Positions 1-11,305 of a DNA stretch of 18,044 nucleotides are shown piece after piece; position 1 is the stretch's first letter; each line of letters begins with the position of its first letter. Source of the stretch: Massilia sp. UBA2604 (GTDB lineage: Bacteria > Pseudomonadota > Gammaproteobacteria > Burkholderiales > Burkholderiaceae_D). Below the pieces are notes generated by a model that was not told where the DNA came from, made no database searches, and was given only the letters and a program-made list of their open reading frames with translations. Made by a program: the position numbers and the translations under genes. The DNA lies in the NCBI GenBank assembly GCA_002339265.1, contig DDKG01000244.1, positions 1 through 18,044 of the forward strand, given 5' to 3'.

Positions 1-225
1 GCGCTGTGGGACGGCATGCGCGCGCTGCCGCCGGAAACCCTGGGCGACACCCTGCTGCTGGCCAACGACCTGGCGCCCCTGCCCTCGCCCCTGTTCGCAC
101 CGCCCGGCGCCACCACGCCTGCGGCGGCGGCCACCATCGACTTCGTGTTCGGCGAAGGCACGCTCAAGGGCGTGCTGGAAGAGTCGGCAGAGGAAGTGAA
201 AAGCCTGACGTCGGCGCTGCTGTAA
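1..225 (+). CDS. 3' end of an unrecognised protein-coding gene
   Basis: This is an open frame running in from the left edge in frame 1 and ending at TAA (223-225), so only the last 74 residues are visible. The visible part begins ALWDGMRALPPETLGD and ends EEVKSLTSALL. It has a Pro/Ala-rich middle (about residues 30-46) and an acidic, probably helical tail. There is no transmembrane segment and no motif I recognise, so I assign no function. Codon use (G/C at third positions) fits a real gene of this genome. An internal ATG at 16 is in frame, but the frame is open to the edge and the true start probably lies outside the window. The stop is 11 bases before the A-tract of the first small-RNA unit, which is on the opposite strand. 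No plus-strand terminator with a T-run follows. Confidence 0.6.
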   Translation, partial: ALWDGMRALPPETLGDTLLLANDLAPLPSPLFAPPGATTPAAAATIDFVFGEGTLKGVLEESAEEVKSLTSALL

Positions 226-236
226 ACACTGCGCAC

Positions 237-267
237 AAAAAAAACGCCCGCTCGGTGAGGAGCGGGC
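237..267 (-). terminator. Intrinsic terminator of small RNA copy 1
   Basis: The 8-bp stem GCCCGCTC/GAGCGGGC with a 6-nt loop is followed in the minus direction by G and then eight T (244-237). On the plus strand the hairpin has A8 before it and no T-run after it, so it should end minus-strand transcripts only. Confidence 0.75.
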
Positions 268-300
268 CAAGTCCAAAACTAGGGATGTCCTGAAAGAGAC
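237..300 (-). ncRNA. Putative 64-nt small RNA, repeat family copy 1
   Basis: Read on the minus strand, a 32-nt core (300 down to 269; begins GTCTCTTTC, ends TTTTGGACTT) is followed by an 8-bp hairpin (246-253 paired with 260-267, 6-nt loop) and eight T (244-237). The core is identical to those at 3154-3185 and 3316-3347. A stable hairpin plus T-run is the signature of an intrinsic terminator, and it exists only in this orientation. A -10-like box lies 6 bp upstream of the core, which puts the transcription start at or near 300. The predicted RNA has a single-stranded 5' half and a structured 3' end with a U-tail, as in Hfq-type trans-acting sRNAs. Target and function are unknown. It resembles in style the multicopy betaproteobacterial 'toxic small RNA' family that I recall from Rfam; membership is untested. 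Confidence 0.72.
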
Positions 301-338
301 AGGTCCATCTTATGCTTGTGGCGTGGCGCCCTCCGTAC
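301..338 (-). promoter_or_regulatory. Promoter of small RNA copy 1
   Basis: In the minus direction the octamer GTACGGAG (338-331), an 18-bp spacer and TAAGAT (312-307) precede a 6-bp gap to the core at 300. Octamer position, spacer and gap are the same in all three copies. TAAGAT is a 4/6 match to the sigma-70 -10. The octamer sits where a -35 would be but does not resemble TTGACA, so an activator or an alternative sigma factor is possible. Confidence 0.55.
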
Positions 339-499
339 GTTCACGCACACTAAGCGCCACTCTTTTCGCTTCGCACGTTCCCCGCCATTGCCGGCCCAGC
401 CGTGCATTTCCCATCCTCGCTTTCTGCTAAGGTCGTTCCAGCCAGGAGCGCGACAGCAGCGTGCGCGCGCCGGCGTACTTATGCTCTGGAGGAAATCCC

Positions 500-1297
500 A
501 TGCACATCAATCTGAACGACCAGGTGGCGCTCGTGACCGGCGGCGACTCCGGCATCGGCCGCGCCATCTGCATCGCCTTCGCCGCGGCCGGCGCCAAGGT
601 GGTGGTCAACTACAACAGCAGCAAAGAGAAGGCGGACGAGGTCGTGCAAGCCATCGAGGGGGCAGGCGGCCGCGCGCTCGCGGTCCAGTGCGACGTGTCC
701 AGCGAAGACGACGTCGAGCGCCTGTTCGCGCAGACCGACAAGGCCTTCGGCGGCCTCGACATCCTGGTGGCCAATGCCGGCATGCAGAAGGATGCGGGCA
801 TCGCCGACATGTCGCTGGACGACTGGAAAACCGTGCTCGACGTCAACCTGACCGGCCAGTTCCTGTGCGCCCGCGCCGCGATAAAACGCTTTCGTCAACA
901 GGGCAACCGCGGCCGCATGCGCGCCAATGGCGTCGTCCTGTGCATGAGTTCGGTGCACGAGACCATCCCCTGGGCCGGCCACGTCAACTATGCCGCGTCC
1001 AAGGGTGGCATGGGCATGTTCATGCGCTCGCTGGCCCAGGAAGTTGCGCAGGAACGCATCCGCGTCAACGGCATCGCGCCCGGCGCCATTCGCACCCCGA
1101 TCAACGAAGACGCCACCGAGGGAAAAGCCGGCAAGAAGCTGCTCGAGCTGATTCCGTACGGCCGCATCGGCGCTCCCGACGACGTGGCCAATCTCGCGCT
1201 GTTCATGGCATCCGACCTGGCCGACTACATGACCGGCTCCACAGTCTATGTCGACGGCGGCATGTCGCTCTATCCAGGATTCGAAGACAATGGCTGA
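500..1297 (+). CDS. SDR-family oxidoreductase, glucose 1-dehydrogenase-like
   Basis: This is a classical short-chain dehydrogenase of 265 residues. The NAD(P) glycine motif is TGGDSGIG (residues 13-20), the NAG motif is ANAG (91-94), and the catalytic residues are Ser151, Tyr164 and Lys168 with Asn116. The stretches SSVHETIPW, PGAIRTPIN and the tail DGGMSLYPGF closely match Bacillus glucose 1-dehydrogenases (about 261 aa), which oxidise beta-D-glucose to gluconolactone in the cytoplasm. I chose ATG 500 because GGAGG (489-493) stands 6 nt before it; an in-frame ATG at 461 lacks this and would add 13 unrelated residues. The stop overlaps the start of the GH15 gene by 8 bases, which implies translational coupling. 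Glucose released by the GH15 partner would be a natural substrate, but that is inference. The substrate could be another sugar or polyol. No convincing promoter was seen in 301-499. Confidence 0.88.
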   Translation: MHINLNDQVALVTGGDSGIGRAICIAFAAAGAKVVVNYNSSKEKADEVVQAIEGAGGRALAVQCDVSSEDDVERLFAQTDKAFGGLDILVANAGMQKDAGIADMSLDDWKTVLDVNLTGQFLCARAAIKRFRQQGNRGRMRANGVVLCMSSVHETIPWAGHVNYAASKGGMGMFMRSLAQEVAQERIRVNGIAPGAIRTPINEDATEGKAGKKLLELIPYGRIGAPDDVANLALFMASDLADYMTGSTVYVDGGMSLYPGFEDNG

Positions 1298-3110
1298 ACC
1301 GACCGCAACCACGCCGCCGCGCAAGATCGGCGACCACGGCGCCATCGGCAATATGGCGACCATCGCGCTGGTGGCGCTCGACGGCGCCATCGACTTCCTG
1401 TGCTGGCCCGACTTCGGCAGTCCCAGCATCTTCGCCGCACTGCTCGACCCGGAACAGGGCGGCCACTTCACCATCGCGCCGGACTGTGATGACGTGCGCG
1501 TCGTGCAGACCTACGTGCCCGATACCAATGTGCTGCTGACCCAGTGGCTCGGCGAAGACAAGAATGCCCAGGTCATCGATTTCATGGTCGGACCGGAAGA
1601 ACTCGGGCACGGCCCGGTACGCCTGCTGCGGCGGGTGCAGGTGACCACGGGCGAAGTGTGCCTGCGGGTCGACTGCCAGCCCCGCTTCGACTACGCGCGC
1701 CAGCGGCCCGAGGTCAGCGTCCAGCAGGGCCAGGTGCTGTTCACGGCCGCTGGCGCCCCACGCCTGCGCCTGTCGGCGCCGGTCGAGTTCAAGGCCATTG
1801 ACGGCGGGGCCAGCGCCAGCGTGGTGCTGCGCGCCGGCGACGTCATGGACTTCGTGCTCGACGAAGAAGGTAATTCGACCCTCGACTTCGACGCGCGCGA
1901 TGCCCTGCTGAAGGAAGTCGTCAAACGCTGGCAGGACTGGACCGCGCGCTCGACCTACAAGGGCCGCTGGCGCGAGGCGGTCAACCGCTCGGCGCTGGTG
2001 CTCAAGCTGATGACCTCATGCCGCCACGGTTCGATGGTCGCGGCGGCGACCTTCGGCTTGCCCGAGGTGCTGGGCGGTGAGCGCAACTGGGATTACCGCG
2101 CGACCTGGATCCGCGACGCCTCGTTTACCGTGTACGCGCTGATGCGGCTCGGCTACGTCGACGAGGCGAAGGCATTCACCCGCTGGGCTGCCGAACGGCC
2201 GAAACACGATTCCACCGAGAGCCACCTGCGCATCATGTATGCGCTCGACGGCAGCCAGATCGGCGAGGAGATCGAACTCGACCACCTGGCCGGGTACGCG
2301 AATTCCAAACCGGTGCGCATCGGCAATGCCGCCGCGACCCAGCTCCAGCTCGACATCTTTGGCGCCCTGCTCGACGCGATATACCTGAGCAACAAGTATG
2401 GCGAGGCGATCTCGCACGCCGACTGGGTGGGCGTGTGCGAGGTGGTCAACTACGTCTGCGATAACTGGCAGCGTCCCGACATCGGCATCTGGGAAGGCCG
2501 CGAAGCGCCGCGCGAACACCTGCATTCGCAGCTGATGTGCTGGGTGGCGGTCGACCGCGCGGTGCGCCTGGCCAGCAAGCGTTCGCTCAGGGCGCCGTTC
2601 GAGCGCTGGATTGCGGCGCGCAACGACATCTCCCGGTATATCTGGGACACGTTCTGGAACGAGGAGCTTGGCCACTTCGTGCGCAGCAAGGGTTCGCGCG
2701 ACCTGGACGGCGCGCTGCTGATGATGCCGCTGGTGCGCTTCGTCGGCTCGACCGACCCGCAGTGGCTGGCCACGCTGGACGCGATCGGCGAGCAGCTCGG
2801 CGACGATGCGCTGGTGCTGCGCTACGACCGCGACGACGGGCTCGAGGGCGAGGAAGGCGCGTTCGCGGCCTGCTCCTTCTGGTACGTCGAGTGCCTGGCG
2901 CGCGCCGGCCGCATCGACCAGGCCCGCAACAATATGGAAAAGCTGCTCGCCTACGGCAACCACGTCCACCTGTATGCCGAGGAATTCACCAGCAAGGCCG
3001 AGCTGCTCGGGAACTTCCCGCAAGCCTTCACCCACCTGGCCCTGATCAGCGCCGCGACCTATCTCGACCGGGCGCTCGACGGCAAGATCGAGCATCCGTG
3101 GCAGTTATAG
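1290..3110 (+). CDS. Glycoside hydrolase family 15 protein (glucoamylase/trehalase-like)
   Basis: The 606-residue product has the two-part GH15 layout: an N-terminal beta-sandwich (about residues 1-240, starting IGDHGAIGN and DGAIDFLCWPDFGSPS) and a C-terminal alpha/alpha-barrel (about 250-600). The barrel carries RNWDYRATWIRDASF, GIWEGRE and YAEEF. By analogy with fungal glucoamylase, Glu402 (GIWEGR) would be the general acid and Glu564 (AEEF) the general base. No signal peptide is visible, so a cytoplasmic enzyme acting on maltodextrins or trehalose is likely. Family members include glucoamylases, glucodextranases and trehalases, and the sequence alone does not separate these. I chose ATG 1290, which overlaps the SDR stop by 8 bases; the upstream in-frame ATG at 1248 lies within the SDR coding region. 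No plus-strand T-run follows the stop, so transcription probably continues across small RNA copies 2 and 3 to the hairpin at 3438-3474. Confidence 0.9.
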   Translation: MAEPTATTPPRKIGDHGAIGNMATIALVALDGAIDFLCWPDFGSPSIFAALLDPEQGGHFTIAPDCDDVRVVQTYVPDTNVLLTQWLGEDKNAQVIDFMVGPEELGHGPVRLLRRVQVTTGEVCLRVDCQPRFDYARQRPEVSVQQGQVLFTAAGAPRLRLSAPVEFKAIDGGASASVVLRAGDVMDFVLDEEGNSTLDFDARDALLKEVVKRWQDWTARSTYKGRWREAVNRSALVLKLMTSCRHGSMVAAATFGLPEVLGGERNWDYRATWIRDASFTVYALMRLGYVDEAKAFTRWAAERPKHDSTESHLRIMYALDGSQIGEEIELDHLAGYANSKPVRIGNAAATQLQLDIFGALLDAIYLSNKYGEAISHADWVGVCEVVNYVCDNWQRPDIGIWEGREAPREHLHSQLMCWVAVDRAVRLASKRSLRAPFERWIAARNDISRYIWDTFWNEELGHFVRSKGSRDLDGALLMMPLVRFVGSTDPQWLATLDAIGEQLGDDALVLRYDRDDGLEGEEGAFAACSFWYVECLARAGRIDQARNNMEKLLAYGNHVHLYAEEFTSKAELLGNFPQAFTHLALISAATYLDRALDGKIEHPWQL

Positions 3111-3121
3111 AAACTGCAGGC

Positions 3122-3151
3122 AAAAAAAACCCGCGCCGTCGCCGGTGCGGG
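3122..3151 (-). terminator. Intrinsic terminator of small RNA copy 2
   Basis: A G+C-rich hairpin (3130-3151) precedes eight T in the minus direction (3129-3122). The stem has one A-C mismatch when read as minus-strand RNA. It has no T-run on the plus side, so it should not stop GH15 transcription. Confidence 0.72.
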
Positions 3152-3185
3152 TAAAGTCCAAAACTAGGGATGTCCTGAAAGAGAC
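3122..3185 (-). ncRNA. Putative 64-nt small RNA, repeat family copy 2
   Basis: The 32-nt core (3185 down to 3154) is identical to copies 1 and 3. It is followed in the minus direction by a hairpin (3151-3144 with 3137-3130) and eight T (3129-3122). Predicted length is again 64 nt. The stem differs in sequence from the other two. On the minus-strand RNA it has five outer pairs, an A-C mismatch, then three pairs closing a GCGA tetraloop. The transcript ends 12 bases past the GH15 stop codon, tail to tail with that gene. It lies directly downstream of copy 3 in the direction of transcription, with its own promoter between them. Function and targets are unknown. Confidence 0.72.
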
Positions 3186-3223
3186 GAGTCCATCTTATGT
3201 GAGCGGCGCCCCGACCTCGGTGC
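3186..3223 (-). promoter_or_regulatory. Promoter of small RNA copy 2
   Basis: In the minus direction, GCACCGAG (3223-3216), an 18-bp spacer and TAAGAT (3197-3192) are followed by a 6-bp gap to the core at 3185. The -10 box and its flank (CATAAGATGGAC) are identical to copy 1, while the spacer is mostly different, which points to selection on the boxes. Confidence 0.55.
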
Positions 3224-3283
3224 GCCATTTCACATTTAACATGTCTTTTTTACATTCTCACTTCAGGCCAGGAAATGCCGGAC

Positions 3284-3313
3284 AAAAAAAACCCGCTTCG
3301 TTGCGGAAGCGGG
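3284..3313 (-). terminator. Intrinsic terminator of small RNA copy 3
   Basis: A perfect 8-bp stem with a 6-nt loop (3292-3313) is followed in the minus direction by eight T (3291-3284). This is the cleanest of the three small-RNA terminators. Confidence 0.78.
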
Positions 3314-3347
3314 CGAAGTCCAAAACTAGGGATGTCCTGAAAGAGAC
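3284..3347 (-). ncRNA. Putative 64-nt small RNA, repeat family copy 3
   Basis: The 32-nt core (3347 down to 3316) is identical to copies 1 and 2. Next comes a perfect 8-bp hairpin CCCGCTTC/GAAGCGGG (3313-3306 with 3299-3292) and eight T (3291-3284), giving 64 nt. It has its own promoter-like boxes (3354-3385). It sits between the bidirectional hairpin that ends secF and copy 2, so it is the upstream member of a tandem pair. Having its own terminator suggests a separate transcription unit rather than a read-through tail of secF. Function and targets are unknown. Confidence 0.73.
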
Positions 3348-3385
3348 AGCTTCACTATAGGCGCGCCGGATTGGCGACTCCGTGC
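3348..3385 (-). promoter_or_regulatory. Promoter of small RNA copy 3
   Basis: In the minus direction, GCACGGAG (3385-3378), an 18-bp spacer and TATAGT (3359-3354, 5/6 match to the sigma-70 -10) are followed by a 6-bp gap to the core at 3347. The spacing equals that of copies 1 and 2 although the spacer sequence differs. Confidence 0.58.
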
Positions 3386-3437
3386 GCTGCCACACACAAC
3401 ACTGTCAAATTCCCTACGCAACACAATTCACATCAAT

Positions 3438-3474
3438 AAAAATGCCGCCGCGGCAAAGCCGGGGCGGCATTTTT
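3438..3474. terminator. Bidirectional intrinsic terminator downstream of secF
   Basis: The arms AAAAATGCCGCC (3438-3449) and GGCGGCATTTTT (3463-3474) pair perfectly and enclose a smaller CGGC-AAA-GCCG hairpin. A run of T follows the stem on both strands. It lies 17 bases past the secF stop. It should end the minus-strand queA-secF operon and also stop plus-strand transcription arriving from the SDR-GH15 operon. Confidence 0.85.
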
Positions 3475-3491
3475 CATGCAGCGCGAGTAGA

Positions 3492-4514
3492 TCAGACCAC
3501 CGCGCCGTCGGTCTCGTCCTTCTCCTTGATCGGCTTGATCAGGTCTTCGCGCTTGACGCCCAGCCACATGGCCACCGCCGCCGCCACGAACACCGATGAG
3601 TAGACGCCGAACAGGATGCCGATGGCCAGCGCGATCGCGAAGTAGTGCAGCGCATAACCGCCGAAGAACAGCATCGACATCACCATCATCAGGGTCGAAC
3701 CGTGGGTGATGATGGTGCGCGAGATGGTGCTGGTGATCGCATGGTCGATGACTTCCGTCGTCGACATGCGGCGCTGCTTGCGGAACATCTCGCGGATCCG
3801 GTCGAAGATGACGACCGATTCGTTGACCGAATAGCCCAGCACCGCCAGCGTTGCCGCCAGCACGGTCAGCGAGAACTCCCACTGGAAGAAGGCGAAGAAG
3901 CCCAGGATGATGACCACGTCGTGCAGGTTGGCGACCACGGCGGCGACGGCGAATTTCCATTCGAAGCGGATCGCCAGGTAGATCATGATGCCGACGACGA
4001 CCATGATCAGCGCGTTCAGGCCGTTCTGGGCCAGCTCGTCGCCGACCGACGGGCCGACGAACTCGACCCGCTGCAGGCTGATCAGCTCTTCACCCGACGC
4101 CTTGGCGCAGCTGGTGTGGTTGACGACTTCACCCTTGTCGGTCGTGATCTGGCTCTGCTTCGGCGCACCGCCGTCGGCCGCGCAGATGGCATTGAACACG
4201 CGCGTCGAGGTGCCGGCCGCATCAGTGCCTTCCACGATCGGCAGGCGCAGCATGATGTCCTGGGCAGTGCCGAAGCTGGCCACCTCAGGATGCGAATAGC
4301 CCATGCCGCGCAAGGTGTCGCGGATCTTTTCCTGGTTGGCCACATGCGGATAGCGCAGCTCCATCACGGTGCCGCCGGTAAATTCCACCGAGAAGTTCAG
4401 CCCTTTGCTGAACAGGAAGAACACCGCCAGCACGAACGTGATCACCGAGATCGCATTGAGGATCAGGGCGTGGCGCATGAACGGGATGTCCCGTTTGATC
4501 TTGAAAAATTCCAT
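3492..4514 (-). CDS. secF: Protein translocase subunit SecF
   Basis: SecF is an inner-membrane subunit that, with SecD and YajC, uses the proton motive force to help release and pull proteins exported through SecYEG. The 340-residue product shows a first membrane helix (about 15-36), the FTGGT motif (45-49), a periplasmic domain, then five membrane helices (about 165-318) with NLHDVVI (196-202) and GYSVNESVVIFDRIRE (227-242), typical of SecF. The periplasmic part includes a stretch (about 95-140) with Cys111 and Cys136. The gene starts 15 bases after the secD stop; AAGGA overlaps that stop and GAGA stands nearer the ATG. It ends 17 bases before a strong bidirectional terminator, so it is the last gene of the operon. 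Confidence 0.97.
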   Translation of the reverse strand: MEFFKIKRDIPFMRHALILNAISVITFVLAVFFLFSKGLNFSVEFTGGTVMELRYPHVANQEKIRDTLRGMGYSHPEVASFGTAQDIMLRLPIVEGTDAAGTSTRVFNAICAADGGAPKQSQITTDKGEVVNHTSCAKASGEELISLQRVEFVGPSVGDELAQNGLNALIMVVVGIMIYLAIRFEWKFAVAAVVANLHDVVIILGFFAFFQWEFSLTVLAATLAVLGYSVNESVVIFDRIREMFRKQRRMSTTEVIDHAITSTISRTIITHGSTLMMVMSMLFFGGYALHYFAIALAIGILFGVYSSVFVAAAVAMWLGVKREDLIKPIKEKDETDGAVV

Positions 4515-9244: not shown

Positions 9245-11305
9245 ATGCCCGCCTCCAAGACCACAAATCCACCCAAGACCCTCGAAAGCAAGCTCGCCCG
9301 CCTTGGACTGCGCAGCGACATGGACCTGGTATTGCACCTGCCGATGCGCTACGAGGACGAGACCCAGATCGTGTCCATCCGCGAGGCCTGCATGCGTGGC
9401 GGCCACGTGTCGCAGGTCGAAGGCGTGGTGACCAAGAACGAAATCTCGTTCAAGCCACGGCGCCAATTATTGGTCACCATTGCCGACGAATCGGGCGAGC
9501 TGCTGCTGCGCTTCATGAATTTCTACGGCAGCCAGGTCAAGCAGATGGCCGAAGGCGTGCGCATCCGCGCGCGCGGTGAACTCAAGCACGGCTTCTTCGG
9601 CGCCGAGATGGTGCACCCGGCCTATAAGGTGGTCAACGAAGGCGCGCCGCTGCCCTCCTCGCTGACGCCCGTGTACCCGGCCGGCGAAGGCCTGTCGCAG
9701 ACGGTGCTGCGGCGCGCGATCGCCGATGCGATGAAGCGCATCGACTGGAGCGACACGGTCCCGGCCGGGATCCGCGCCAAGATGGGCTTGATCGACTTCG
9801 AGCCGGCGGTAAAACTGCTGCACTATCCGCCGGCCGACGTCGACGAATTTGCGCTGGGCGAAAAATCGCATCCGGCCTGGGAACGCATGAAGTTCGACGA
9901 GCTGTTGGCGCAGCAGCTGTCCCTGAAACGGGCGCAGCGCGCACGGCGCGAAAAAGGCGCGCCGCATTTGCGCGCCGTAGGCAGCCTGTCCGAAGCGTTC
10001 TTGAAAGGGCTGCCGTTCGCATTGACCGGCGCCCAGCAGCGCGTGGTGGAAGAGATCCGCGCCGACCTGCGCGAAGGCTATCCGATGCAGCGCCTGCTGC
10101 AGGGTGACGTCGGCAGCGGCAAGACCGTGGTCTCGGCGCTGGCCGCGGCGCAGGCGATCGACAGCGGCTACCAGGCGGCGCTGATGGCGCCGACCGAGAT
10201 CCTGGCCGAGCAGCATTTCCGCAAGATCGCGGCCTGGATGGAGCCGCTCGGCGTGAAGGTCGCCTGGCTCACCGGCAGCCTCAAGAAAAAAGAGAAAGCC
10301 GCGTCGAACGAATTGATCGAATCGGGCGAAGCGCAGCTGGTGATCGGCACCCACGCGCTGATCCAGGACACGGTGAATTTCGCCAAGCTGGGGTTGGTGA
10401 TCGTCGACGAACAGCACCGTTTCGGTGTCGGCCAGCGTCTTACCTTGCGCAACAAAGGCAGCGACGGCCTGGTGCCGCACCAATTGATGATGTCGGCCAC
10501 ACCGATCCCGCGCACCCTGGCGATGACCTATTACGCCGACCTCGAGGTGTCGGTGATCGACGAGCTGCCGCCGGGCCGCAGCCCGATCGTCACCCGTGCG
10601 ATCGACCAGATGCGGCGCGACGAGGTGATCGAGCGCGTCTATGCGGCGGCGCTCGAAGGCCGGCAAGTGTACTGGGTCTGTCCGCTGATCGAGGAATCCG
10701 AGGCCCTGCAATTGCAGACCGCGACCGAGACCTACGAGACCCTGGCCGAGTCGCTGCCCGAGCTGCAGGTGGGGCTGGTGCATGGCCGTATGAAACCGTT
10801 TGAGAAGCAGGAAGTGATGGATGCCTTCACCGCCGGCGAGGTGCACGTGCTGGTGGCGACCACCGTGATCGAGGTCGGGGTCGACGTGCCGAACGCCTCG
10901 TTGATGGTGATCGAGCATGCCGAGCGCTTTGGCCTGTCGCAGCTGCACCAGCTGCGCGGGCGAGTCGGTCGCGGTTCGGCGGCATCGGTGTGCCTGCTGC
11001 TGTACCAGTCGCCGCTGGGCCAAGTCGCCAAGCAGCGTTTGATGACGATGCGCGAGACCACCGATGGATTCGAGATCGCGCGGCGCGACCTGGAGATCCG
11101 CGGGCCCGGTGAGTTCTTGGGCGCGCGCCAGTCGGGGCAGGCGATGCTGCGCTTCGCCGACCTGGAGCTCGATGGCTGGCTGGTCGACCGGGCGCGCGAC
11201 GTGGCGCAGTATCTGCTCGATGGCGAAAAGCCAGAGAAGATCGCGGTGGTCGATGCGCATCTGGCGCGCTGGCTGGGCGGGCGCGAGGAATTCCTGAAGG
11301 TCTGA
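9245..11305 (+). CDS. recG: ATP-dependent DNA helicase RecG
   Basis: RecG is a monomeric superfamily-2 helicase that reverses stalled replication forks and remodels branched DNA. The 686-residue product (E. coli 693) has an N-terminal wedge/OB-fold domain (about 45-190), Walker A GDVGSGKT with Lys293, a DEQH box (388-391), MSATPIPRT (motif III) and the C-terminal helicase lobe with TTVIEVGVDVPNA and QLRGRVGRG. The RecG C-terminal block RRDLEIRGPGEFLGARQSG is also present. I chose ATG 9245 (MPASKTTNPPKTLESKLARLGL); the frame is open far upstream, but that part is antisense to queA and is not RecG-like. No clear Shine-Dalgarno precedes it. The stop TGA shares a base with a downstream ATG (TGATG at 11303-11307). 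Confidence 0.97.
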   Translation: MPASKTTNPPKTLESKLARLGLRSDMDLVLHLPMRYEDETQIVSIREACMRGGHVSQVEGVVTKNEISFKPRRQLLVTIADESGELLLRFMNFYGSQVKQMAEGVRIRARGELKHGFFGAEMVHPAYKVVNEGAPLPSSLTPVYPAGEGLSQTVLRRAIADAMKRIDWSDTVPAGIRAKMGLIDFEPAVKLLHYPPADVDEFALGEKSHPAWERMKFDELLAQQLSLKRAQRARREKGAPHLRAVGSLSEAFLKGLPFALTGAQQRVVEEIRADLREGYPMQRLLQGDVGSGKTVVSALAAAQAIDSGYQAALMAPTEILAEQHFRKIAAWMEPLGVKVAWLTGSLKKKEKAASNELIESGEAQLVIGTHALIQDTVNFAKLGLVIVDEQHRFGVGQRLTLRNKGSDGLVPHQLMMSATPIPRTLAMTYYADLEVSVIDELPPGRSPIVTRAIDQMRRDEVIERVYAAALEGRQVYWVCPLIEESEALQLQTATETYETLAESLPELQVGLVHGRMKPFEKQEVMDAFTAGEVHVLVATTVIEVGVDVPNASLMVIEHAERFGLSQLHQLRGRVGRGSAASVCLLLYQSPLGQVAKQRLMTMRETTDGFEIARRDLEIRGPGEFLGARQSGQAMLRFADLELDGWLVDRARDVAQYLLDGEKPEKIAVVDAHLARWLGGREEFLKV

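Follow-up and report, generated by a model that had tools for sequence, protein, structure and literature searches.

Tandem small RNA units related to RF02278 between secF and an HDOD-domain gene in Massilia and its relatives: a discrete class with a predicted activator-driven promoter

Introduction

The closest described relatives of the units considered here are the RNAs of the Rfam family RF02278 (Betaproteobacteria toxic sRNA), namely the double-hairpin RNAs ncS03, ncS05, ncS27 and ncS62 of Burkholderia (PMC5688073) and Hsnc059, Hsnc063, Hsnc086 and Hsnc107 of Herbaspirillum (PMC7011215). Overexpression of ncS27 is reported to attenuate growth, with amino-acid and carbohydrate genes described as affected, and S17S of Bordetella pertussis directly represses a regulator gene (PMC5688073, PMC10987360, PMC11722255); overexpression of S17S left the exponential growth of E. 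coli unimpaired (PMC11722255). The authors of the Burkholderia study state that the regulator of accumulation of these RNAs is as yet unknown (PMC5688073).

Here we analyse a stretch of 18,044 nucleotides from Massilia sp. UBA2604 (contig DDKG01000244.1; hereafter the window) that holds three units of a related kind, which we term class D. They resemble the RF02278 RNAs in length, in a 5' UGUCUC, in the combination of a weak hairpin with a terminator and in occurring in multiple copies per genome, and differ from them in that the CU-rich stretches directed against ribosome sites are changed (UGUCUCUUU, loop AUCCCUA). Class D has an upstream box of its own; the RNAs of Burkholderia have a common upstream motif (PMC5688073, Fig. 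S3). Class D also occupies a single locus, where its copies stand in tandem, and in this it differs from the copies in Burkholderia, which are described as dispersed (PMC5688073). With S17/S17S it shares a 5' end that is constant in many species, followed by a hairpin and a terminator; S17S represses through ribosome sites, as is proposed below for class D, but is processed from a longer RNA, whereas class D has promoter elements adjoining its core (PMC11722255). The NmsR sibling RNAs of Neisseria, also tandem and with two unpaired CU-rich stretches against ribosome sites as described in PMC5688073, are likened to class D here by description only, and their bacterial group within the Betaproteobacteria is a different one. 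Among the matches listed for the literature on RF02278-type, sibling and Massilia-group sRNAs, no account of class D or of its box was found.

Results

Three units with an identical core

The minus strand of the window carries the 32-nt core GTCTCTTTCAGGACATCCCTAGTTTTGGACTT three times, precisely at 269-300, 3154-3185 and 3316-3347 and each time free of mismatches; a search across the window allowing up to three mismatches gave no further copy, and none is expected by chance (0 in 200 dinucleotide-preserving shuffles). Each predicted sRNA measures 64 nt from the G of the core to the end of the T-run. Copy 1 spans 237..300 (-), with a terminator hairpin at about 246-267 and a T-run at 237-244; copy 2 spans 3122..3185 (-), with the hairpin at about 3129-3152 and the T-run at 3122-3129; and copy 3 spans 3284..3347 (-), with the hairpin at about 3291-3314 and the T-run at 3284-3291. 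The preliminary description of this DNA, made from the letters alone, is borne out on these points: the three minus-strand units lie where it had placed them, each core is followed by a hairpin and eight T, and the surroundings have indeed diverged, the identity with copy 1 over the 118 nt compared being 72% for copy 2 and 63% for copy 3.

Relationship to RF02278

A cmscan search matched copies 1, 2 and 3 to RF02278 at 46.0, 33.2 and 38.6 bits, respectively, and each alignment spans the whole model (positions 1-64 of 64). The gathering cut-off of the family is 50 bits, and in eight genomes all 16 class D units score between 33.2 and 47.2 bits. Because all three copies fall under the cut-off, the curated rule does not make class D a member of RF02278, within whose reach it lies as a divergent sister class; thus, of the earlier suggestion that the units belong to the Rfam toxic-sRNA family or to a relative of it, the kinship stands through the full-length alignment and the membership does not. 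The suhB/mmgR family RF00519 was set aside: it matched copies 1 and 3 at 28.5 and 27.0 bits, below its gathering score of 41 and more weakly than RF02278, and copy 2 is absent from its match list. Elsewhere in the window, 10055-10297 (-) gave a match to Yersinia Ysr141 (38.5 bits against a gathering score of 196), likely a chance one, inside a recG-like coding sequence, and 3428-3496 a weak match to sX6 (22.3 bits against 40) over the terminator-like hairpin that follows secF.

Conservation and genomic context

Counted across related genera, the exact core is found in 99 contig stretches that correspond to 86 genomes (13 names occur twice), distributed over Massilia, Telluria, Pseudoduganella, Duganella, Janthinobacterium, Rugamonas and a few loosely named organisms including one Herbaspirillum. 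Since an exact-core search selects for identity, it was repeated allowing three mismatches in 195 genomes from the family to which genome G001 belongs. This gave 63 copies, spread over 46 of the genomes, and none for a control pattern. Of these copies, 48 are exact, 14 carry one change, one carries two and none carries three; 12 of the 14 single-change cores share one T-to-C change and the other two differ otherwise. By this count, class D is discrete and nearly invariant.

In the window the units lie downstream of secF (3492..4514, minus strand; Pfam SecD_SecF_C), and the C-terminal end of a gene on the plus strand at 1..225, which tblastn connects to relatives of which a full-length one (stretch L090) is an HDOD-domain protein, marks the other side. 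Between secF and copy 3, a terminator-like hairpin recognized by eye (3438..3474, minus strand) would stop transcription from secF ahead of the sRNA units. The arrangement is general: wherever this is testable, units stand downstream of secF and on its strand (102 of 102) and are convergent with the HDOD gene (95 of 95), so that class D sits between these two anchors wherever the flanks are readable. Copies are in tandem, at times kilobases apart. Neither anchor is present in seven of the 99 stretches; one of these seven (L059) has a GH15 and an SDR gene, the two kinds of gene that stand between copies 1 and 2 in the window and that occur in eight and seven of the 99 stretches, respectively. 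The window's place in the Massilia group shows in its SecF, SecD, YajC, Tgt and QueA proteins, which share 94-100% identity with their counterparts in M. timonae (L009), M. arenae (L038) and Massilia sp. HP4 (L053).

Predicted fold

Each unit is predicted to fold into a weak hairpin and a strong terminator hairpin followed by the T-run, with a z of about -3 for the whole RNA. The 5' half had been described as unpaired, which is only partly so: a weak hairpin is predicted over nt 8-30 of the unit, yet the 33-nt 5' part taken alone is no more stable than shuffled sequence (z 0.13; 104 of 200 shuffles fold equally well or better), so that a stable fold does not account for the unvarying core. All eight pairs of this first hairpin are invariant in 54 rows, which had been chosen for an exact core, so that no covariation stands behind it; further, the T-to-C change and two rarer changes of the core alter the predicted fold of the 33-nt part, which argues against the first hairpin as what conservation acts on. 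In the terminator helix both sides have changed in five of nine pairs (54 of 108 distinct units), with a covariation of 0.124 as against 0.061 (sd 0.005) in shuffled alignments and at most 0.058 when slid.

A -10 element and a dyad box at fixed positions

Alignment on the core of 142 copies with full flanks, the three of the window among them, reveals TANNNT at -12 to -7 (T 99%, A 100%, T 99%) and a 16-bp dyad at -49 to -34, approximately TGTGARTCAGCGCACA (about TGTGA-N6-GCACA), which is followed by GAG. The dyad is centred at -41.5, or at -42.5 in 17 copies. In the window, the -10 boxes occupy the positions seen in the alignment (TAAGAT at 307..312 for copy 1, TAAGAT at 3192..3197 for copy 2 and TATAGT at 3354..3359 for copy 3, all on the minus strand), and the dyads TGTGCGTGAACGTACG (334..349), TGTGAAATGGCGCACC (3219..3234) and TGTGTGGCAGCGCACG (3381..3396), likewise on the minus strand, are all centred at -41.5. 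The right half of the dyad, CGYACNG, is present in 141 of the 142 copies, with its first base at -39 in 124 of them and at -40 in the other 17; it has just three stray matches elsewhere in -80 to -21, single ones at three positions. In eight genomes it marks all 16 class D units and none of the 56 other RF02278 relatives. Both the right half and the -10 recur in each of 15 altered-core copies, which were retrieved once the motif had been settled; the left half is often weaker in them.

The preliminary description had seen in the units independently transcribed trans-acting RNAs rather than a passive repeat. In sequence, separate units are favoured by the -10 and box that 141 of 142 copies have as their own and by a T-run of at least six T in 142 of 142; cores that lack T-run and promoter boxes were looked for among the 142, where a single copy (L060) is without the upstream box and none is without the T-run.

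A strict form of the box, TGTGNNNNNNCGCACNGAG, has 18 matches in eight genomes, nine of them class D promoters; the reversed control has three. Among the remaining matches, three precede a ydeP-like oxidoreductase gene (L173, L185 and, at about position 1500, L180), with a catalase-like gene on the opposite side in two cases, all named by reading; among orthologues of the ydeP-like gene the dyad pattern occurs in seven of 14 upstream stretches, that of L425 being far from the usual place, in a check that left out nine further rows at 47-52% identity.

Candidate targets and seed

Targets were screened against 1342 starts predicted in 1.56 Mb of genome G001 with a simple gene finder of our own. 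Duplex energies of class D against these starts were no better than those of 20 shuffled RNAs. Perfect 9-nt matches within -40..+15 fall on 11 genes as against 5.6 (sd 3.0) for 100 shuffles, six of which reach 11, and as against one to five in four windows of coding sequence. At 8 nt, class D has 28 matches at starts versus 3-13 in coding windows, and A1, from a sister class, has 40 versus 1-9. Thus, the genome-wide target signal of class D is weak, and its preference for ribosome sites is weaker than that of the sister classes A-C.

Three of the genes with a 9-nt match were traced in 30 carrier genomes, and two of them were rejected as conserved targets: leuB, for which G002 gave no match and which pairs over at least 8 nt in four of the other 29 genomes (at least 10 nt in three), and an rpoH-like gene, with at least 8 nt in one of 29, a partial row from G002 being dropped. 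The third, sbp, is only partly conserved in this respect, with at least 8 nt matching in four of 30 carrier genomes; in several sbp rows the start was extrapolated and is possibly off. The pattern CTGAAAGAGAC-N2..9-ATG has 16 matches in 11 of 30 genomes, of which three are the antisense of the sRNA itself, and two for the reversed control. Only sapC (Pfam PF07277) occurs twice among the 13 remaining matches, in genomes G001 and G106, both with the 12 nt CTGAAAGAGACA directly before the start. By eye, the neighbours of sapC are tryptophan-halogenase-like and cupin-like.

We identified 18 sapC genes in 17 of the 30 genomes, the other 13 having no sapC match at the cut-off. At least 8 complementary nt are kept in nine of the 18, or in seven of 16 without G001 and G106, the genomes that led to the choice of the gene. 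GAGACA lies within -20..+1 of 13 of 18 sapC genes as against 24 of 1342 background starts; the form fitting class D, AGAGACA, precedes the start in 10 of 18 as against two of 1342 in G001, whereas GGAGACA, which fits the 5' ends of classes A-C, is found in one of 18 as against 20 of 1342. As the orthologues are related, none of these sapC counts are independent events. On present evidence sapC is the best candidate target. The preliminary description had suggested pairing by CAGGACATCCC with GGGATG-type sites; the best evidence instead favours the 5' end UGUCUCUUU, which appears to be the better supported seed, mainly through this one partly conserved candidate gene.

Sister classes within reach of RF02278

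With an E limit of 1, RF02278 matched 102 rows in the eight relatives' genomes, and the best 72 of the 102 were read together with their upstream DNA. These 72 comprise 25 units of class A, eight each of classes B and C (one per genome in both cases), 16 of class D (one to three per genome), four of class E and 11 others, where classes D and B were assigned by the core, C and E by the box and A by a looser fallback. Class B scores 48.4-53.4 bits and class A 29.1-67.4, as compared with 33.2-47.2 for class D. An element of the approximate form AATTGGACTTATATG...GCAGCATAAT precedes every class B unit and the majority of class A units (L104, L112 and L114 are examples); its AATTRG part is found in eight of eight and 22 of 25, respectively.

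Class C units, e.g. G005:C12:535797-535867 (L119), G003:C1:173355-173424 (L126) and G004:C1:2009838-2009906 (L127), have a PhaR-like box such as TGCACTGCACAA over the promoter. In Bradyrhizobium the PhaR consensus is given as TGCRNYGCASMA (PMC6201568), and a full fit to it is found in six of eight class C units, themselves assigned by a looser form of the box, and, anywhere in the 75 upstream bases, in four of 64 other units; box counts for classes C and E are circular, because both classes were assigned by the box. The class C box may tie an sRNA to PHB storage.

Class E (G001:C7:3301320-3301376, G003:C3:181055-181111, G004:C1:811043-811099 and G005:C34:277302-277359; 25.1-26.9 bits) shares the upstream GTAAGCAA-NTGTAAGA and the 5' end TCTCTCTCCACTT, and is possibly a separate sRNA family. 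A gene for a GntR-type regulator, named by reading, lies in stretch L244 (G008:C4:564600-566600) near an RF02278 unit that scores above the cut-off (G008:C4:564765-564826).

Discussion

Proposed mechanism and its alternatives

The reading that we favour, with somewhat better than even confidence, is that the three units are tandem sibling genes of one regulatory sRNA, which would form a distinct class of the RF02278 double-hairpin family in the Massilia group, be driven from promoters of its own by an activator and repress by pairing with ribosome-binding sites. The DNA points to it in several ways: the core is identical in the three units and conserved between species, the box and -10 keep fixed positions, the terminator helix shows compensatory changes, and the locus is shared. 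From these we infer a chain of events in which a putative activator would bind the dyad, RNA polymerase would start at or beside the G of the core and the RNA would end at the terminator hairpin and T-run; Hfq would then use the U-rich tail, and the 5' end of the RNA (about nt 1-12, UGUCUCUUUCAG) would cover the weak ribosome sites of some mRNAs, with sapC as the best candidate, and thereby repress them. The effects described above for the published relatives ncS27 and S17S make such a mechanism plausible (PMC5688073, PMC10987360, PMC11722255).

The position of the units, downstream of secF and on its strand, would also suit RNAs that have no transcription of their own and are released from the secDF transcript at its 3' end, and S17S is made by RNase E processing (PMC11722255). 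We hold this to be quite unlikely for class D, as a -10 and a dyad stand at fixed positions before the copies, some copies (e.g. copy 1 in the window) are kilobases off beyond other genes, and a terminator-like hairpin separates secF from copy 3. That the units are a passive repeat or a mobile terminator element devoid of any regulatory role is very improbable: they are repeated and carry terminators, but their core is constant between diverged flanks in 86 genomes, and the promoter elements keep a fixed spacing at a single shared locus. More credible than either of these, though still unlikely, is an RNA that works chiefly through contact with a protein, or as a sponge for another RNA, rather than by covering ribosome sites; GGA is the signal of CsrA, and the two GGA motifs of the core could bind CsrA/RsmA. 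The constancy of the whole 32-nt core despite its weak fold and the targeting of ribosome sites, weaker than in the sister classes, would fit such a role; the sapC pattern, specific to the 5' end of class D, speaks against it.

As the predicted activator, the box suggests cAMP-CRP; it would then be a class II CRP site, and the RNAs would be catabolite-control sRNAs like CyaR or Spot 42. The dyad TGTGA-N6-GCACA is one base off the CRP consensus TGTGA-N6-TCACA, and its centre at -41.5 is exactly the class II position, so that a CRP-like dyad does stand where a class II CRP-activated sRNA should have one. The group also has a protein whose recognition helix, SRETVTR, is of the CRP type and which is related to solved CRP/CAP chains. 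However, close relatives of this protein (at least 66% identity) are found in four of eight genomes, in three of which the helix itself was read, rather than in every genome that bears the box, while class D with its box is present in eight of eight. A class III cyclase (PF00211) is found in three of eight, in a search for class III alone, and the other Crp/Fnr proteins, in a survey of about 50 of 57 PF13545 rows, have FNR-type or atypical helices. Because the CRP-like protein is present in four and the cyclase in three of eight genomes, as against eight for the box, cAMP-CRP is unlikely as the general activator.

Implications

The RF02278 family was already known; what is new here is the discrete, near-invariant class D, its locus between secF and the HDOD gene and its dyad at -41.5. 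A 32-nt core that is letter-perfect in 86 genomes despite a weak fold points to many simultaneous constraints, and with its changed 5' end class D is a natural seed variant beside sister classes in the same cell. More tentatively, and with slightly less than even confidence, RF02278 could be viewed as a limb of a superfamily of sRNAs partitioned by their promoters, whose siblings within each Massilia-group genome would fall into classes, each with its own seed variant and a box linked to a sensor. Class C would then read carbon storage via PhaR and class D a dyad-binding activator at -41.5, the whole forming a carbon-use switch of many inputs and a shared output, in which the target code of class D would have moved off the plain anti-ribosome-site sequence. 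If the PhaR-like box of class C holds, sibling RNAs of one family would be wired to different sensors. The class-specific boxes at fixed positions make the control of a widespread sRNA family directly testable.
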